This document shows positions 1,512 through 10,500 of a stretch of DNA of 37,769 nt, piece after piece. Under the pieces are notes generated by a model. The model did no database searches. It had not been told where the DNA came from and saw nothing but the letters and a program-made list of their open reading frames with translations. The stretch comes from Dokdonia sp. (GTDB lineage Bacteria; Bacteroidota; Bacteroidia; Flavobacteriales; Flavobacteriaceae), in assembly GCA_023299935.1 (NCBI GenBank), contig JALZVV010000234.1, forward strand, positions 1 to 37,769. Reading direction: 5' to 3'. Position 1 is the stretch's first letter, and the number at the start of each line of letters is the position of its first letter. The position numbers and the translations under genes were made by a program.

Positions 1512-3399
1512 AGAGCCTAAGGACATATTAAAGCATTATTGGAGCCATACGGCTTTTAGACCTTTACAAGAAGATATCATATCATCTGTCTTAGCCAAAA
1601 AAGATACCATTGCGCTACTTCCTACGGGAGGAGGAAAATCTGTATGTTACCAAATCCCAGCAATTGCACAAGATGGTATAGGACTCGTTGTTTCTCCGCT
1701 AGTCGCTTTAATGAAAGACCAAGTTTCTCAACTCAAACAAAAGGGCATTAAGGCCTTGGCCATTCCTAGTGGCATCCCCTTATCAGAACTAGATGCATTG
1801 CTTGATAATTGTATTTACGGCAATTACAAAATGCTCTATCTATCGCCTGAAAGATTACAGCAAGAACTTGTAATCGAGCGTATTAAACAAATGGATATTT
1901 CGCTTATTGCAGTAGATGAAGCGCATTGTATCTCGCAATGGGGACATGATTTTAGACCAGCCTATCTCGATATCCAAAACTTAAGAGCGCTCAAACCAGA
2001 AGCTCCCATTATTGCCCTTACAGCAACAGCAACGTCAAAGGTTCTTAGGGATATTAGTGCGCAGCTCAAATTAGACAATGAAATCCTTTATAAAAACTCC
2101 TTTAATAGACTTAACCTAACCTATACAGTAAGCGCTGTAGCAGACAAAAACTTTAAACTAGAGCAACTACTCACTAGGAGTTCTAATAGTGCTCTTGTTT
2201 ATGTTAGGAATAGGAAGGCTGCAATGCAAACCGCACAATTCCTAGAAGCTAAAGGAATCACAGCCACATACTATCATGGGGGTTTAACTACAGCAGATAG
2301 AACCAAGCATCAGGAGTTATGGATGCAAAACAAAGCAAAAGTAATGGTAGGTACTAGCGCTTTTGGGATGGGTATTGACAAAGAAGATGTAGATATTGTA
2401 ATCCATACAGAGATTCCTGATAGCCTAGAGAATTATTTTCAAGAAGCGGGAAGAGCAGGAAGAGCGGGCCAAGTGTCCAAGGCCGTCCTCTTATATAATA
2501 AAAATGATGAAATACGATTACAGAATCAATTCATCGCAGTCATTCCTTCAATTGCAGATATGAAAACGGTGTACAAAAAATTGAACTCTTATTTTCAAAT
2601 CGCCTATGGCGAAGGGCAAAATGAATCTTACCCATTTAATTTTAACGATTTTTGTCAGACCTATTCCCTACGGTCTATCCTAACCTATAACTGTCTGCAG
2701 ATGTTAGATAGAAATAGTATTATCAAACTCTCCAAAGAGTTTTCCAAAAAAGCAACCATAACCTTTAAAGTAGCCCATGTTGCATTGACTTATTATCTAG
2801 TTAAAAACCCACAGTTTAGCGAAGTGGTGCAAACCATCTTAAGAACATATGGTGGCGTTTTTGAACAAGTAGTTTCCTTAAATCACGCGCTTATTGCTAA
2901 TAAGGCAACTACCAGTATAAAAAAAGTACACGAAATACTTTTAGCCTTAGACCAAGATGATATATTAGATTACACCCACCAAAACTTTGATAGTAGTATT
3001 GTCTTTTTATCACCGCGAGAAGATGACCGAACGATAAACGCCATTGGCCATCATATAAAAGCACATGCTAAAACTAAAAAAGAACAAATACAAAGTGTAA
3101 AGGCCTACCTTGCCAATAAAGAAAGCTGCCGAAATATTCAATTGTTGAGCTATTTTGAAGAAGAAGAAACCGAAATTTGCGGTCATTGCGATGTTTGTTT
3201 AAAGGATAAGTCCATACAAAAGGAAGATTTCTTACCTATTAGCAAGGCTATTCTAAACCAACTTAAAATTAAAGAATGTTCTTCAAGGGACTTATGTGAG
3301 CTTCCTTATTCTGAAAAAGTTATATTAAGCACCTTGAAATTATTACTAGAAGAACAAAAGATAACAATAACACCTTCCAATACCTACAAGCTATTATGA
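1444..3399 (+). CDS. recQ: ATP-dependent DNA helicase RecQ
   Basis: SF2 3'-5' DNA helicase of recombination and repair. Motif 0 is visible in FRPLQEDII, motif I in LLPTGGGKS (near 1618-1641), motif II plus the RecQ aromatic loop in DEAHCISQWGHDF (1915-1953), motif III in TATAT, motif V in GTSAFGMGID and motif VI in QEAGRAGRAG. The C-terminal zinc cluster uses Cys in ESCRNIQ and ICGHCDVC (3121-3198). I see no HRDC domain, so this is a short RecQ. The coordinate uses TTG 1444, the outermost conventional start. The first 19 residues so encoded are antiphase translation of the upstream gene's tail, and homology begins at EPKDILKHYW (about 1513). The native start is probably ATA 1501 or ATT 1507. 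There is no in-frame ATG before the helicase core. Confidence 0.95.
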   Translation: MRFPLEKLKNGHNSSLIHSITIKEPKDILKHYWSHTAFRPLQEDIISSVLAKKDTIALLPTGGGKSVCYQIPAIAQDGIGLVVSPLVALMKDQVSQLKQKGIKALAIPSGIPLSELDALLDNCIYGNYKMLYLSPERLQQELVIERIKQMDISLIAVDEAHCISQWGHDFRPAYLDIQNLRALKPEAPIIALTATATSKVLRDISAQLKLDNEILYKNSFNRLNLTYTVSAVADKNFKLEQLLTRSSNSALVYVRNRKAAMQTAQFLEAKGITATYYHGGLTTADRTKHQELWMQNKAKVMVGTSAFGMGIDKEDVDIVIHTEIPDSLENYFQEAGRAGRAGQVSKAVLLYNKNDEIRLQNQFIAVIPSIADMKTVYKKLNSYFQIAYGEGQNESYPFNFNDFCQTYSLRSILTYNCLQMLDRNSIIKLSKEFSKKATITFKVAHVALTYYLVKNPQFSEVVQTILRTYGGVFEQVVSLNHALIANKATTSIKKVHEILLALDQDDILDYTHQNFDSSIVFLSPREDDRTINAIGHHIKAHAKTKKEQIQSVKAYLANKESCRNIQLLSYFEEEETEICGHCDVCLKDKSIQKEDFLPISKAILNQLKIKECSSRDLCELPYSEKVILSTLKLLLEEQKITITPSNTYKLL

Positions 3400-4352
3400 A
3401 CAGATTACGCATTCTATTTATGGGCACACCAGAATTTGCCGTAACAATATTAAATGGACTATTGAGTACTAGTCACGAAGTTGTAGGGGTAATTACCGCT
3501 CCAGACAGACCAGCTGGCCGCGGACAAAAAATAAGAAAGAGTGCAGTAAAAATTGCTGCCCAAGAGCATAATCTAACCATCCTGCAACCTACTAATCTCA
3601 AAGACAAGACCTTTTTAGAAGAATTAAAAAGCCTAGAAGCAAATTTACAAATAGTGGTAGCTTTTAGAATGCTCCCTAAAGCGGTTTGGGCTATGCCATC
3701 ATTAGGCACCTTTAACCTGCACGCTTCCCTGCTTCCTCAATATCGAGGTGCTGCTCCTATTAATTGGGCCATTATTAATGGAGAAAAGACCACAGGGGTT
3801 ACTACCTTCTTTATAGACGAAAAGATAGACACTGGTGCTATTATCAAGCAAAGTACATTAACTATTGGGCCTAATGAAAATGCTGGGAGCCTTCACGATA
3901 GATTAATGTACTCAGGAAGTGCGCTTGTGCTAGATACAGTAGAAACAATTGCACAAGGCAATACAAGTACACATATACAACCACAAGATGTGGATCTAAA
4001 AACAGCTTATAAACTCCATAATGACAATACAAAAATAGATTGGACACAATCTAATGAAACGATTCACAATCTTATTAGAGGTCTTAATACATATCCAGGA
4101 GCGTGGTGTTATTTAAAGACTAATGGAGAAGAACTGCGAGTAAAAATCTATACTGCTTTCGCGAAAGCATACTCAGAAGAAATGGAAAAGAAAGAAGTGG
4201 GTCAGATTAGTATAGAAAACGATGTAATGCTAGTACATACCCTCGATGGGCTAATTACAATAGAAGAAATCCAACTTCCAGGGAAGCGAAAAATGCTAAT
4301 AAAAGATCTTTTAAATGGTTATAAATTGTCCGAAAATTCTAAAATGCTGTAA
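3396..4352 (+). CDS. fmt: Methionyl-tRNA formyltransferase
   Basis: A 318-aa enzyme that formylates Met-tRNAfMet from 10-formyl-tetrahydrofolate before translation initiation. The N-terminal Rossmann-type domain starts RILFMGTPEFAV. Catalytic residues are visible as N107 and H109 (FNLHASLLP) and D145 (IDTGAI). The signature SLLPQYRG is at 111-118 and the C-terminal OB-like domain begins near residue 205. The start ATG overlaps the recQ stop by 4 bp (ATGA), indicating coupling. Residues 254-259 (AFAKAY) are encoded by the 14-bp repeat palindrome, in a region that is variable in the family. Length is normal. Confidence 0.97.
   Translation: MNRLRILFMGTPEFAVTILNGLLSTSHEVVGVITAPDRPAGRGQKIRKSAVKIAAQEHNLTILQPTNLKDKTFLEELKSLEANLQIVVAFRMLPKAVWAMPSLGTFNLHASLLPQYRGAAPINWAIINGEKTTGVTTFFIDEKIDTGAIIKQSTLTIGPNENAGSLHDRLMYSGSALVLDTVETIAQGNTSTHIQPQDVDLKTAYKLHNDNTKIDWTQSNETIHNLIRGLNTYPGAWCYLKTNGEELRVKIYTAFAKAYSEEMEKKEVGQISIENDVMLVHTLDGLITIEEIQLPGKRKMLIKDLLNGYKLSENSKML
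4155..4168. repeat. Intragenic palindrome GCTTTCGCGAAAGC (copy 1)
   Basis: A perfect 14-bp palindrome inside fmt, read as Ala-Phe-Ala-Lys-Ala and flanked on the right by ATAC. One of four exact copies in the window. Confidence 0.9.
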
Positions 4353-6371: not shown

Positions 6372-6758
6372 TTAAGCCGATCCTATAATCTGTTTGAGCT
6401 CTGAAATTTGATTCTCCCAAAACATCTTCCCCTCTTCTACCTCATCGTCATCTGCAAAATCTGTAATTATTAGGGAGACATCTTTTGTAATCTCATCTAC
6501 TAAAATACGAAGCTCAAAATAAGCATCATCATCTTCTTCTTCTGCCCATCTAAATTTAATGCGTTCTGGTTTTTTCTTTGATAAAAGTTCTGCTCTCTCT
6601 TCTGTTCCTTCCCATATGAAGGTGTAATATTCCCCCCGAGAATTTACATTATCTGCAAACCACTCACTCATTCCAGAAGGAGTTGCCATATATTGATATA
6701 ACAATGAAGGTGAGGCCTTAACCACAAACTCCATTTCAAATTTCACTTTACCACTCAT
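6372..6758 (-). CDS. START-like (AHSA1/SRPBCC-type) domain protein
   Basis: A 128-aa protein. It opens KVKFEMEFVVKASPSLLYQY, then ATPSGMSEWFADNV, FIWEGTEERAEL and FRWAEEEDDDAYFELRI, the pattern of the helix-grip START/AHSA1 fold as found in a protein conserved in Bacteroidetes. The C-terminal helix WENQISELKQIIGS closes the fold. The ligand is unknown. ATG 6758 (MSGKVKF) is preferred over an upstream TTG at 6779. The protein is very acidic (EEEDDD, DFADDDEVEEG). A minus-strand TAGTTTCG (6792-6785) may be its -7 box. Confidence 0.85.
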   Translation of the reverse strand: MSGKVKFEMEFVVKASPSLLYQYMATPSGMSEWFADNVNSRGEYYTFIWEGTEERAELLSKKKPERIKFRWAEEEDDDAYFELRILVDEITKDVSLIITDFADDDEVEEGKMFWENQISELKQIIGSA

Positions 6759-6838
6759 AATTAATTGTTGAAGCCCCAATATATCGAAACTAAACTCGGG
6801 AACAAAAAAATAATTTTGTTTTTATTTTTTCTAATCCC

Positions 6839-6870
6839 TTTGAGTAACAATTATTAGTTTTTTATATTTG
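6839..6870 (+). promoter_or_regulatory. Promoter of the tRNA-Met gene
   Basis: TTTG (6839-6842), a 20-bp spacer, and TATATTTG (6863-6870): a full match to the Bacteroidetes housekeeping consensus. Transcription would start near 6874, about 44 nt before the mature tRNA. Confidence 0.75.
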
Positions 6871-6917
6871 CACCCGCTTGCGCAAATCCATAGTAAATTC
6901 TGCAATAGTGGAAATAT

Positions 6918-6991
6918 GGCGAGGTAGCTCAGTTGGTTAGAGCGTCGGATTCATAACCCGGAGGTCACGAGTTCAATTCTCGTTCTCGCTA
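6918..6991 (+). tRNA. tRNA-Met (anticodon CAT)
   Basis: The cloverleaf is readable. The acceptor strand GGCGAGG pairs with TCTCGCT with wobbles at the ends, AGCTCAGTTGGTTAGAGC forms the D arm, the anticodon loop TTCATAA carries CAT at 6952-6954, and CGAGTTCAATTCTCG is the T arm. CCA is not encoded (the sequence ends ACTA), as is common in this phylum. The last pair of the anticodon stem is an A-C mismatch. I cannot decide by eye between elongator Met, initiator and the CAT-anticodon tRNA-Ile. Confidence 0.93.
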
Positions 6992-7034
6992 CTACTTAAA
7001 AGAGGTCAACTTATCGTTGACCTTTTATCTTTTT
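6969..7034 (+). repeat. Direct repeat, left copy (tRNA 3' end plus terminator), 66 bp
   Basis: Begins at GAGTTCAATTCTCG in the tRNA T arm and runs through the acceptor end and the rho-independent terminator to the T-run. It is base-for-base identical to 7330-7395 as read by eye. It stops exactly at the ATG of the GIY-YIG gene. Confidence 0.95.
7004..7034 (+). terminator. Terminator of the tRNA-Met gene
   Basis: Stem GGTCAAC/GTTGACC (7004-7010 and 7016-7022), loop TTATC, followed by TTTTATCTTTTT. Transcription reaching the GIY-YIG gene would have to read through it. Confidence 0.85.
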
Positions 7035-7295
7035 ATGCAACATCTTGTTTATACTCTATACTCTCAAAAGTTTAATAAATCCTATACAGGAATTACCTCG
7101 AGTATTATTGAACGATTCCATTCTCATAATACCTATGGCACTAAAGGATGGACATTAAGGTACAGACCTTGGGTAGCTGTGCATATTGAAGTCTTTAACT
7201 CAAAAAAAGAAGCCCTGAATAGAGAAAAATGGTTTAAATCTGGAATAGGACGTAATAGAAAACAAGAAATCATAAAGAAATTTCTAAAGTCATAG
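7035..7295 (+). CDS. GIY-YIG family nuclease, 86 aa
   Basis: A stand-alone single-domain GIY-YIG protein. VYTLYS (5-10) and YTG (17-19) replace the canonical GIY and YIG triplets. R27 in ERFHSHN is the expected catalytic arginine and E64 in NREKWFKS the metal-binding glutamate, so the nuclease looks intact. YRPWVAVHIEVF is typical of the small UPF0213-like group. Translation should start at ATG 7035, directly after the tRNA terminator T-run; an upstream TTG (7017) lies within the terminator and is rejected. There is no separate promoter or ribosome binding site, so expression probably depends on read-through. The gene is bracketed by 66-bp direct repeats of the tRNA end, which suggests a homing-like element. 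Confidence 0.9.
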   Translation: MQHLVYTLYSQKFNKSYTGITSSIIERFHSHNTYGTKGWTLRYRPWVAVHIEVFNSKKEALNREKWFKSGIGRNRKQEIIKKFLKS

Positions 7296-7302
7296 AACAG
7301 GA

Positions 7303-7352
7303 GGATTCATATCCGCCAGAAGCGGACAAGAGTTCAATTCTCGTTCTCGCTA
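7303..7352 (+). pseudogene. tRNA-Met 3'-half remnant with altered anticodon stem
   Basis: GGATTCATA (7303-7311) repeats the anticodon region of the intact tRNA (6947-6955). The following stretch is replaced by TCCGCCAGAAGCGGA, a 5-bp hairpin. The T arm and acceptor 3' strand (7330-7352) are then identical to the tRNA. The 5' half (acceptor, D arm) is absent, so it cannot form a tRNA. Confidence 0.75.
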
Positions 7353-7395
7353 CTACTTAAAAGAGGTCAACTTATCGTTGACCTTTTATCTTTTT
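7330..7395 (+). repeat. Direct repeat, right copy, 66 bp, including a second terminator
   Basis: Identical to 6969-7034. It contains the same GGTCAAC/GTTGACC hairpin (7365-7371 and 7377-7383) and T-run, so it can terminate the GIY-YIG transcript. Confidence 0.95.
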
Positions 7396-7459
7396 GTTTA
7401 GGTGCTATTATATCTTTTTAAGGATTCCGTATTTATTGAAATCACTCAAAATAAACGAC

Positions 7460-7504
7460 GAAATACACTATAATAATGTTGAAATACACAATTTTAACAT
7501 TTTT
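7460..7504 (+). promoter_or_regulatory. Upstream motif cluster of the carboxypeptidase gene
   Basis: GAAATACAC occurs at 7460-7468 and 7481-7489, 21 bp apart (two helical turns). TTTTAACATTTTT follows at 7492-7504, 11 bp after the start of the second copy. A matching arrangement precedes the next large T9SS gene (12569-12612). It looks like an activator site. Confidence 0.45.
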
Positions 7505-7547
7505 ATTCCTTTTACTTCATAAATTTTATATAGTTTCGCCATTGAAT

Positions 7548-7555
7548 TATTTTTG
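7548..7555 (+). promoter_or_regulatory. -7 box of the carboxypeptidase gene
   Basis: TATTTTTG fits TAnnTTTG. AGTCCCAA (7562-7569), a word shared with the leader of the gene at 12699, lies near the likely transcription start. No good -33 TTTG is visible, consistent with activator dependence. Confidence 0.45.
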
Positions 7556-7598
7556 CCCAGTAGTCCCAAACCTACTTTGAAAACCTACTTATTCTATT

Positions 7599-10500
7599 AT
7601 GAAAAACAGTACTTATTTATCTCGTTTAATAGGGTTATTCCTTTTAACTCTTACCCTCAATCTATCAGCCCAAAATAACACAACAGTTTTGGATGATGGT
7701 TTAGCAAAACGTATTTTAATTGATGCGCCTACAATAGAACAACTTCAAGCTATTCAAGCTTCTGGTTTAGACTTACATTGTGGAGCTAAATTTGAAGGAG
7801 AAAATTTACGCTTAGATTTGCAACATAGTGAAGCAATGACAATTCAAGAACTAGGACTCTCATTTCAAGTTATTGAAGAAGATCTTGTGACATTTTTTGC
7901 AGATCGTGCTGCCGCTACACTTCCTCAGGCCAGAATCAATCTGGAACAAATGAAGCAGGAAGCCCTTATTGAGCAACAAAATCGTAGTTCTCTAAGCACT
8001 GGAGATGCTACAGTTGAAAGTTTTATACAACGCGAAGAATGTGATGAGGTTGATTGGGTTGCACAAAATTTCAGATTAGGAGGTTTTAATGAGCCTGGAG
8101 TATCTTTTGGTGGTTGTCTTACTGTAGATGAAATGATTATAGAATTAGATAGAATGCGTTCATTGTATCCCAACCTCATATCTGTAAGACAAGACGCTTC
8201 GCCTACAGGACAGCAGACTTATGGTAATAATTCAGCCGGTACGGCTAATGATTTTGACCCGCAGACCATATGGTATGTACGTATATCAGATAATCCAGAT
8301 GAAGATGAAGATGAACCTGAAAACCTAATTACAGGTATGACCCATGCGCGTGAAGTAAATAGTATGATGAACATTATTTATTACATGTGGTGGATATTAG
8401 AAAATTATGACGCAGAACCTGCTATTAAAAACCTTGTAGATAACCAAGAAATGTATTTTATACCTATAGTCAATCCTGATGGTGTAAAATGGAATGAAGT
8501 GATAACACCTAATGGTGGAGGTTTTCAACGTAAAAACTTAAGACCTGGGGTAAATGATAACGGAACTACAGGTACAAACAATGCATTAAGAGGAGTAGAT
8601 CTTAACAGAAATGCTAGTTATTACTGGGGATTTGACAATTCTGGATCTAGTCCATCGCAATCTACTGACACTTATAGAGGCCCTTCTCCTTCATCAGAAC
8701 CGGAATCTCAAATCCTTAGAGATTTTGTGCAGTCTAGAGATTTTGAATATGCGATTAATCATCACTCAGGTATTAATTCTATAGTGACATCTTCATATAA
8801 TGGTAATCCTAATGCTGCTCCTTCTGGACGCGAAAATGAATACCAAAAATTGATGCACGATGCTACCCGCTTTAATAGATACATTCATGGTTCTGCGCCT
8901 AACACATTAACCTCTGCAAACGGAGATACTAATGATTTTATGTTGGGAGGACCTCCAGTTACCTATAATACATTAATAGACGATGATGGTGATAACTTTG
9001 GAAACCCAGCCACCTTACAATCTTATACAGCTCTAGGATCTGGTGAAAACATTATTACCTTCTCTCCTGAGAATGGTGATGATTTCTGGCCTCCAGCAAC
9101 AGATATTGTGCCGATAGCTCAGCGTGCGCTACGTATGAATTTAATGTCATCCTTATTTGCAGGAAAATATGCAAGATTGCACGATTTTACCATGACTAGC
9201 TTGACATCTACAAATCCTCAATTGGATTTTCAGGTAGAACGATTAGGTCAAACGGCTAGTGATTTAACATTGACCATAACCCCTATTTCGGCCAATATCA
9301 CTTCAGTAACACAGCCTAATGCTACAGGCCTAAATGGACTGGCTATGCTAGAACAGCGTGCAACTTCGGCTACATTAACACTTGATCCTAGTACCCAAGC
9401 TAATGATGCTGTAACGTATATGGTAACTTTAAGCAATGATTCTTATATCATTTATGAAACGACTTATACTAAATATTATACGCCTTCAGTAGTCACGGCT
9501 GCAGACGGTGATACGGATTGGAACTTAACAGGCACGTGGGCAGAAACTACAGATGGTTTTGATGGTAGTGCCAATGCAATTACCTCAACGCCTGCTCCAC
9601 CCTATGATAATAATCAACTAGGTTTTGCCACATTAAACACAGTTAGTGACTTATCAGGTGCAAATAGTGCTGTTGTACATTTTCATGCAAAATGGGATTT
9701 AGAACGTAATTTTGATTTGGCTCAACTGGAAGTTAGTACCAATGGTGGATCCACCTGGAATGCGGTATGTGGAAAGTATTCTAAAATCCCTTCAGAACAA
9801 CAATTTAATTTGCATTTAAATAAAAATAACAGTGATGAGCAACATCAATCGGCTAATGGAACATTTATCTATGATGGCGATTTAGTTGTTGACTTAAATG
9901 CTACAGTGACGGCCTCTGCATCAGATGATACCGATAAGTGGGTGCTGGAAGAGTTTTTGTTTGATAACACTAATAATCCAGGAATCGCCGGACAGTCTAA
10001 TGTACGTTTTCGCTTTAAGTTTGATACTGATTCCACCAACCGTGAAGATGGTTACGACACTAATTTTGAAGGATTTACTTTTGACAATTTCCAAGTCTCT
10101 ATTATAGATCAAATGGCTGACATCTGTAGTGAAGTGCTTAGAGAATTCCCGCAAACAACTAGTCTGGAAAGAGGTATAGGCATTTGGACACAAAATACAG
10201 GTGATGATGGAAATTGGACACTTGATGCAAATGGCACTGTATCGGGAGGTACAGGACCTGATGCAGGAGAAGATGGAGGTGATTATCTTTACCTTGAAGC
10301 TTCCGATCCCAATGCCGTTACAGATCCTAATGCTATAGGCTTTAATGCTACAGCAATCTTAACAAGTCCCTGCCTAGATTTAACTGAATTCTTCAACCTA
10401 GAACTCTCTTTTAATTACCATATGTTTGGGAGTGATACAGGAAGTCTTCAGGTAGAAGTACTCCCTAATGGAGAAAGCGTTTGGGAACTGATTACAGATT

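Follow-up and report, generated by a model that had tools for sequence, protein, structure and literature searches.

The stretch of DNA analysed here (37,769 nucleotides, referred to below as the window) belongs to a draft Dokdonia assembly of 2.6 Mb in 251 contigs that is 85% complete. At the locus of interest, an intact tRNA-Met gene is followed on the same strand by a very short gene for a GIY-YIG nuclease, and then by a broken copy of the 3' part of the tRNA. The features are:

6918-6992, plus strand: intact tRNA-Met(CAT), the presumed target gene (ARAGORN 6918-6992; Rfam 6918-6991)
6969-7034, plus strand: left copy of the repeat, with T arm, acceptor end and terminator (repeat comparison, sequence)
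7000-7034, plus strand: terminator-like hairpin and T run, between tRNA-Met and the gene
7035-7295, plus strand: GIY-YIG nuclease gene, 86 aa (PF01541, E 5.2e-11; AlphaFold2 model)
7303-7353, plus strand: tRNA remnant with anticodon arm, palindrome, T arm and acceptor end, not called as a tRNA
7311-7326, plus strand: palindrome ATCCGCCAGAAGCGGA within the remnant, with a 5-bp stem by the fixed hairpin rule
7330-7395, plus strand: right copy of the 66-bp repeat, identical to 6969-7034
7361-7395, plus strand: second terminator-like hairpin with T run, in the right repeat copy

The direct repeat that brackets the gene extends over 72 nt at 97% identity (6963-7034 and 7324-7395), and its 66-nt core, running from the T arm to the terminator, is identical in both copies, as the original prediction had claimed. 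An exact repeat of this length is far out of reach of chance, and an identical layout occurs in many genomes. The last base of the left copy immediately precedes the ATG at 7035, which confirms that this copy abuts the 86-aa reading frame, and a hairpin with a T run is indeed present in each copy. The right copy can be traced further back, into the anticodon arm, where 7303-7314 (GGATTCATATCC) corresponds to 6947-6958 (GGATTCATAACC). Beyond this point ATCCGCCAGAAGCGGA replaces the 3' strand of the anticodon stem and the variable loop, after which the T arm and acceptor end follow. Judged by its sequence, the right copy is a degenerate 3' part of a tRNA and more than a clean repeat; neither ARAGORN nor Rfam called a second tRNA anywhere in the window. 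Both terminators of the window are identical, so the window by itself cannot tell which copy arrived. Read-through expression of the gene past the tRNA terminator, as had been suggested, is plausible from the layout.

The product of the 86-aa reading frame matches the GIY-YIG family in Pfam; NCBIfam has no family for it. An alignment of 25 sequences shows no variation in any of them at Y6, Y17, G19, R27, T40, E64 and K68, a set that includes the two catalytic residues previously described as intact, R27 and E64. The AlphaFold2 model (mean pLDDT 92.9, pTM 0.79) consists of one compact domain, and neither the Pfam search nor the predicted structure contains a separate DNA-binding domain, such as the one that I-TevI carries. 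Foldseek gave modest E-values, the best solved folds being UPF0213 protein BH0048 (8.6e-4) and Slx1 (4.2e-3 and above), with the catalytic domain of I-TevI at 0.39. A fold like those of UPF0213 and Slx1 leaves room for recognition of hairpins or branched DNA, and hence for a possible role of the palindrome.

Relatives of this protein are common near tRNA genes. Matches at E 0.001 were found in 44 of 99 related genomes, and gene order was examined in 60 stretches around a subset of these matches together with three loci of the window's own genome, giving 79 gene matches in all. For short genes (60-91 aa), an intact tRNA on the same strand lies within 110 bp in 26 of 46 and within 1 kb in 35 of 46; the 20 short genes beyond 110 bp include members of arrays, genes at contig ends and genes of another kind (L066, L079, L085). 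Among longer genes (92-140 aa) the corresponding count within 110 bp is one of 29, namely L059, which is tRNA-linked and has an over-long start. The remaining four genes, shorter or longer, include two with such a tRNA. One locus listed here, L079 (G024:C21), carries a pair of GIY-YIG genes downstream of a tmRNA gene, at distances of about 400 and 800 bp.

Two arrangements recur. In type A, as in the window, the order is intact tRNA, gene and broken 3' part (Met, Val, Arg-TCT, one Arg-TCG and one Pro). In type B it is broken 5' part, gene and intact tRNA (Arg-TCG, Arg-ACG, Leu-CAA, Pro and Asp). The ATG follows shortly after the tRNA terminator in many loci, and in most type B loci inspected the stop codon lies about 10 bp or less from the start of the intact tRNA. 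Several genomes have two or three units in tandem, and one contig (G230:C34, loci L278 and L281) has at least six consecutive Met-type GIY-YIG genes at a spacing of roughly 340-360 bp. The genome of the window itself holds a second unit, of type A after tRNA-Arg(TCT) (L004, reverse strand, 3480-3880; C116), and a third, of type B before tRNA-Leu(CAA), with a frame-shifted gene (L285, 2580-3023; C162). The original prediction of a minimal, integrase-free homing unit of 361 bp is supported as regards a small unit without an integrase but was incomplete: the unit is one of a family found at several tRNA types, and what stands to the right of the gene is a broken tRNA end that contains a palindrome.

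A scan of species genomes with an alignment of the Met type found 328 coding stretches, and the analysis covered the 80 that scored best. In 58 of these 80 a tRNA lies within 430 bp upstream (within 150 bp in 44), and it is always tRNA-Met(CAT) on the same strand. For the other 22 of the best 80, the stretch examined contains no tRNA upstream; in one of them (L155) a tRNA-Met lies on the downstream side, and seven begin no more than 200 bp from the end of a contig. Record titles among the best 80 include Flavobacterium, Halpernia, Kaistella, Algoriphagus, Cyclobacterium, Olivibacter and Fluviicola, and the relatives found are in Bacteroidota. A Flavobacterium-like unit with its tRNA also stands on a MAG contig titled Rhizobium (L133), a title that may be a binning or naming slip. 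Rfam detected no group I intron in the window, where it called the tRNA only, or in 60 related loci, and the tRNA is uninterrupted. As to carriers, 50,697 phage records yielded no match, and the search for a vehicle returned only weak matches, to one plasmid record (38.5% identity) and to seven IMG/VR loci (35-39%).

The association with particular tRNAs is also reflected in the proteins themselves. A tree was built from 75 proteins, four of the 79 having been dropped for length (<65 or >140 aa), and labels were set by hand where the stretch held no intact tRNA (L035, L036, L037, L054, L064, L073 and the epimerase rows described below). The Met (7 rows), Pro (8), Leu (4) and epimerase (3) proteins each form one side of a supported branch, with genera mixed. 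The nine labels require 11 changes on the tree, compared with a mean of 43.6 after shuffling, and none of 200 shuffles was as low; the alignment has few columns, and near-copies from arrays were retained, which favours clustering. Val (2 changes) and Arg (6 changes) proteins do not each form a single group. Across genera, protein clades largely follow tRNA type, and since each clade largely keeps to one tRNA type, the family is suited to learning how a GIY-YIG domain of 80-90 residues chooses its target.

The broken tRNA ends share a further feature. Within 60 bp past the stop codon, the pattern TCCGCC-(0-8)-GGCGGA is present in 56 of the 79 Met-type loci that offered sufficient sequence (from the best 80 of 328), compared with one of 380 control 60-mers drawn from the same loci. 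The pattern is missing from 23 of these 79, some of which have a variant or decayed form. When hairpins were defined by a fixed rule (a perfect stem of at least 5, at least 4 G-C pairs and a loop of at most 12), a G+C-rich hairpin was found on the broken side in 21 of 25 tRNA-linked loci, covering several tRNA types, and in 4 of 136 control stretches. L038 was excluded from this count, as its contig ends inside the gene. The rule failed in L040, L041, L042 and L060; by eye, L040 and L042 have longer loops and L060 has a broken gene. In L053 the top-scoring hairpin is the terminator.

The remnant pattern was also used alone as a query in 395 genomes of the phylum, a search whose pattern the window's own, imperfect palindrome falls outside. 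It identified 17 places in 12 genomes, some of which share one array, and the reversed control gave none among the matches listed. A Met-type gene ends within 200 bp upstream in 10 of the 17 and lies near, on the same strand, in 14; there is no such gene in L267, L269 and L270. A tRNA-Met stands within 1.2 kb upstream in 8 of the 17.

The palindromes invite a reading in which transposition is directed by hairpins, as in REP/RAYT systems: the palindrome would be the working end, the GIY-YIG protein would act on extruded hairpins, and tRNA genes would be chosen as formers of hairpins. The frequency of the palindrome in Met-type remnants and of hairpins on the broken side are both consistent with it, as are the best folds, UPF0213 BH0048 and the branched-DNA nuclease Slx1. 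Furthermore, a genome-wide count of the palindrome pattern gave 32 in G059 against none in its control, and 14 against 3 in G014. In the window's genome, however, the count was 8 against 5 in the control, G016 and G044 were near their controls, G003 and G036 had none, and the Foldseek E-values were modest. Dispersed REP repeats were set aside as the main explanation on the grounds that the palindrome is not clearly enriched in the window's genome, and we regard this kind of transposition as unlikely.

The remnants of three loci (L049, L051 and L075) can still be folded by ARAGORN into a tRNA-like cloverleaf. This, and the pairing of protein type with a tRNA-like sequence, might suggest a defence or toxin-antitoxin function, with tRNA as the substrate of the nuclease and RNA from the remnant as its restraint. 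GIY-YIG enzymes are known mostly as DNA nucleases, however, most remnants are not scored as tRNAs, and remnants persist at scars that have lost the gene, all of which make such a pair extremely improbable.

The original prediction had proposed a search for empty sites in relatives, and these exist at three sets of orthologous tRNA genes, linked to START_2, era and prs; the comparisons are between species and not between strains. START_2 has a match in 16 of 18 genomes of the genus, and tRNA-Met is beside it in all 16. DNA matching the GIY-YIG gene occurs beside this tRNA only in the window (1 of 16), so that the gene is not vertically conserved and fixed in the genus. In the nearest relative (G017) the flanks match window positions 6706-7001 at 79% and 7457-7603 at 72%, and the gene for an M14 peptidase is next to the locus there too; the spacer of about 630 bp is otherwise unlike that of the window, so no exact junction can be read from this genome. 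The related unit in G014, with 69% protein identity, lies on the same contig as its START_2-linked tRNA, about 54 kb away. The arrangement in G014 might be taken to show that the left terminator is part of the element, but an island between the tRNA and the unit may explain it instead, so it does not serve as proof here.

The search with Era covered 61 genomes of the genus to which G183 and the near relatives of Flavobacterium L138 belong; 59 of them matched, and 30 loci were examined. A tRNA-Met is present in 29 of the 30 and is divergent from era in 24, as in L138. Three of these 24 loci are occupied (L251, L263 and L264), 20 are without a GIY-YIG gene, and L247 is unreadable because its contig ends 15 bp past the tRNA, giving an occupancy of 3 of 23 readable loci. 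None of the five era loci of other arrangement (L245, L252, L260, L261 and L262) has a GIY-YIG gene. For prs, matches were found in 17 of 18 genomes of the genus, with tRNA-Leu(CAA) at 16 loci. Four of these 16 loci carry a type B unit (those of G014, G010, G015 and the genome of the window); the remaining 12 are empty.

The limits of the insertion can be seen by comparing an occupied locus from Flavobacteriaceae bacterium PS02336 (L161) with an unoccupied one (L240). Positions 1-1443 of L161 match 1131-2573 of L240 at 88.7%, and 1750-3116 match 2519-3882 at 92.5%, the second match beginning at the base past the stop codon and at tRNA position 23. From these boundaries, the insertion consists of 309 bp of leader and gene plus a 52-bp repeat of the tRNA. 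The pair L128 and L246 gives a similar picture. When right and left terminators were compared against empty sites at 25 era-linked loci, the pattern failed in 12, and the right one matched better in 6 of the other 13. This count has no general value as proof, and only the pairs L161/L240 and L128/L246 are relied on.

Scars are also found. L242 has a remnant without a gene, and L297 has a 5' piece of a tRNA and a palindrome, also without a gene. These scars, the broken genes and tandem copies, and the lack of the gene at most orthologous tRNAs argue against a resident, vertically inherited gene that is expressed with the tRNA (for example for tRNA processing) and whose repeat is a simple tandem duplication. 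The close spacing in many loci would suit such a gene, with the ATG close behind the tRNA terminator and, in most type B loci, the tRNA about 10 bp or less past the stop, but overall we consider it very unlikely.

At the tRNA-Leu locus of G010, the two pieces can be told apart by allele. The remnant starts with GCCGAAATGGCGG, as do the tRNAs at 11 of the other 15 loci, whereas the intact tRNA-Leu starts with GCCTTGGTGG and ends with CCCAAGGTAC, an allele that the other 15 loci all lack. Most simply, the unit arrived with a foreign tRNA and the remnant is the native allele. A native displaced piece beside a foreign functional one is clear only in this tRNA-Leu of G010; the window, with its identical terminators, does not decide the matter. 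The tRNA-Met genes of the genus (L095-L110) have two T-arm alleles, each in 8 of 16, and these are possibly traces of past replacement of the 3' half.

Since tRNA 3' ends are classic attachment sites, the repeats could instead be attL and attR of a tyrosine-integrase island that has eroded to 361 bp, with the GIY-YIG gene as a passenger. Island-end-like repeated motifs do follow tRNA-Met in some genomes of the genus (L097, L098, L100 and L107), and in G014 an island may separate the tRNA from the GIY-YIG unit 54 kb away. Such a motif also stands upstream of the gene in L035. Against an island, many genera show this compact arrangement, with a gene of this kind, at several types of tRNA and also in tandem arrays, type B units carry a 5' rather than a 3' piece of the tRNA, and the two copies in the window enclose no reading frame large enough for an integrase, the GIY-YIG gene being the only one of at least 70 aa. 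Together with the L161 and L240 pair, the type B units make this explanation improbable. The view that the unit is small, free of integrase and spares both the tRNA and its terminator is upheld.

Similar genes are found in settings other than tRNA genes. At the GGAGF motif of a sugar epimerase/dehydratase gene (L062, 1500-1900; L066, 1480-1900; L072, reversed, 1470-1870), a 5' piece of the gene ending in ...GGATTT (or GGGTTT) AACCC(G/A)TGAAATG is followed by a GIY-YIG gene and then by a fresh, differently coded 5' end and the rest of the gene; Pfam Epimerase was found in L062 and L066. The logic of these insertions is that of type B at tRNAs. Longer GIY-YIG genes occur among dispersed, partly inverted repeats (L046, L057, L069, L070, L074, L076, L077, L078 and L082), many of the GTCATTGCGAG... 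kind, which they perhaps drive. In the window's own genome, L005 (1615-2583; C160) encodes a phosphoribosylanthranilate isomerase (PF00697) to which a GIY-YIG domain (PF01541) is fused in frame at the C-terminal end.

The sequence comparisons establish presence and absence at orthologous tRNAs, an intact tRNA together with a displaced remnant, a link between protein and tRNA type, and arrays. The anatomy of the window and the pattern of presence and absence are solid, and a mechanism driven by the nuclease is likely. Taken together, the locus is best explained as an integrase-free, homing-like minimal mobile unit that keeps or re-supplies the tRNA end, an explanation that we hold with reasonable confidence. 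The unit comprises a terminator or leader, a single gene for a GIY-YIG nuclease and a broken tRNA end that bears a palindrome. It is probably a minimal selfish element. The nuclease would cut an unoccupied tRNA gene of its own type, and repair from the occupied copy, using the tRNA sequence on either side as homology, would copy the unit in. Function of the tRNA would be preserved, which amounts to homing with a built-in replacement end. More speculatively, the palindrome may destroy the second copy of the target or act as a recognition feature, and repeated cutting with unequal recombination between tRNA repeats could generate the tandem arrays.

Several points count against this homing model. 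At occupied loci the remnant is altered by the palindrome and the intact tRNA is unchanged, so that the intact tRNA still bears the presumed target and the model leaves self-protection unaccounted for. In addition, the protein is predicted to be one bare domain of 86 aa. Further points are the identical terminators of the window, the unlike spacer in G017, the outcome of the terminator comparison at era-linked loci, the 22 of 80 Met-type loci with no tRNA upstream, the Arg and Val proteins that fall outside single groups, and the lack of a carrier among 50,697 phage records. A bolder version, which we put forward tentatively and consider rather doubtful, is that of a class of mobile element in which a bare GIY-YIG domain like those of UPF0213 and Slx1 lands on hairpin-forming tRNA DNA and lets its host survive by carrying or regenerating the tRNA end, with the palindrome as its recognition end. 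If this were true, tRNA halves and even whole tRNA alleles would be rewritten across Bacteroidota, and the same trick would reach protein genes, as at the GGAGF region of the sugar epimerase/dehydratase.

The homing-like unit would rank among the smallest mobile units with a nuclease of their own, and would target essential genes without splicing. It would also provide a natural route for the replacement of tRNA alleles. Pairs of occupied and empty loci make mobility directly testable in ordinary environmental bacteria, and such units may be the source of some of the many genes whose annotation says no more than 'GIY-YIG nuclease family protein'.

Several known systems resemble these units in part, and searches of the open-licence PMC literature yielded no description of bacterial chromosomal tRNA units of this kind. 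Tyrosine-integrase islands are flanked by an intact tRNA and, at the opposite end, by a second copy of the tRNA 3' end, and the window likewise has an intact tRNA-Met with the 3'-end copy across the gene; unlike these islands, the 361-bp unit lacks an integrase, type B has the 5' part and units occur in tandem. REP/RAYT systems have a small nuclease gene near short G+C-rich palindromes. The window unit shares this proximity but has a GIY-YIG domain, and its palindromes are not clearly dispersed in the genome.

The closest enzyme biology in the published work found is that of SegB of phages T4 and T6, described as a free-standing GIY-YIG homing endonuclease beside tRNA genes that cuts inside them and promotes segmental amplification (PMC13096335). 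In both cases a free-standing GIY-YIG gene adjoins a tRNA; cutting is documented for SegB and would be expected of the window protein, which shares with free-standing homing endonucleases of this family the catalytic residues Y6, Y17, R27 and E64 and presence or absence at the same locus. SegB differs in being phage-borne and beside a tRNA cluster, and the available part of that account reports neither a tRNA remnant with a palindrome nor a pattern of one enzyme type per tRNA type (PMC13096335).

The closest published mechanism found is that of fungal mitochondrial mobile ORFs with a replacement gene end, among them Allomyces atp6, Rhizopus atp9, Mortierella cox2 and Glomus atp6, atp9, cox2 and nad3 (PMC3630166). 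There, an endonuclease ORF enters an essential gene, which goes on working thanks to a duplicated end while the native end is displaced; the Glomus cases include one GIY-YIG enzyme (PMC3630166). The tRNA units are alike in combining a nuclease ORF with a duplicated end of the target gene. They differ in that the fungal elements concern mitochondrial protein genes and replace the C-terminal end (PMC3630166), whereas the units described here occupy bacterial chromosomal tRNA genes, involve 5' or 3' pieces, have a palindrome in the remnant, encode a single domain of 80-90 aa and have the relatives found for them in Bacteroidota rather than in fungal mitochondria.
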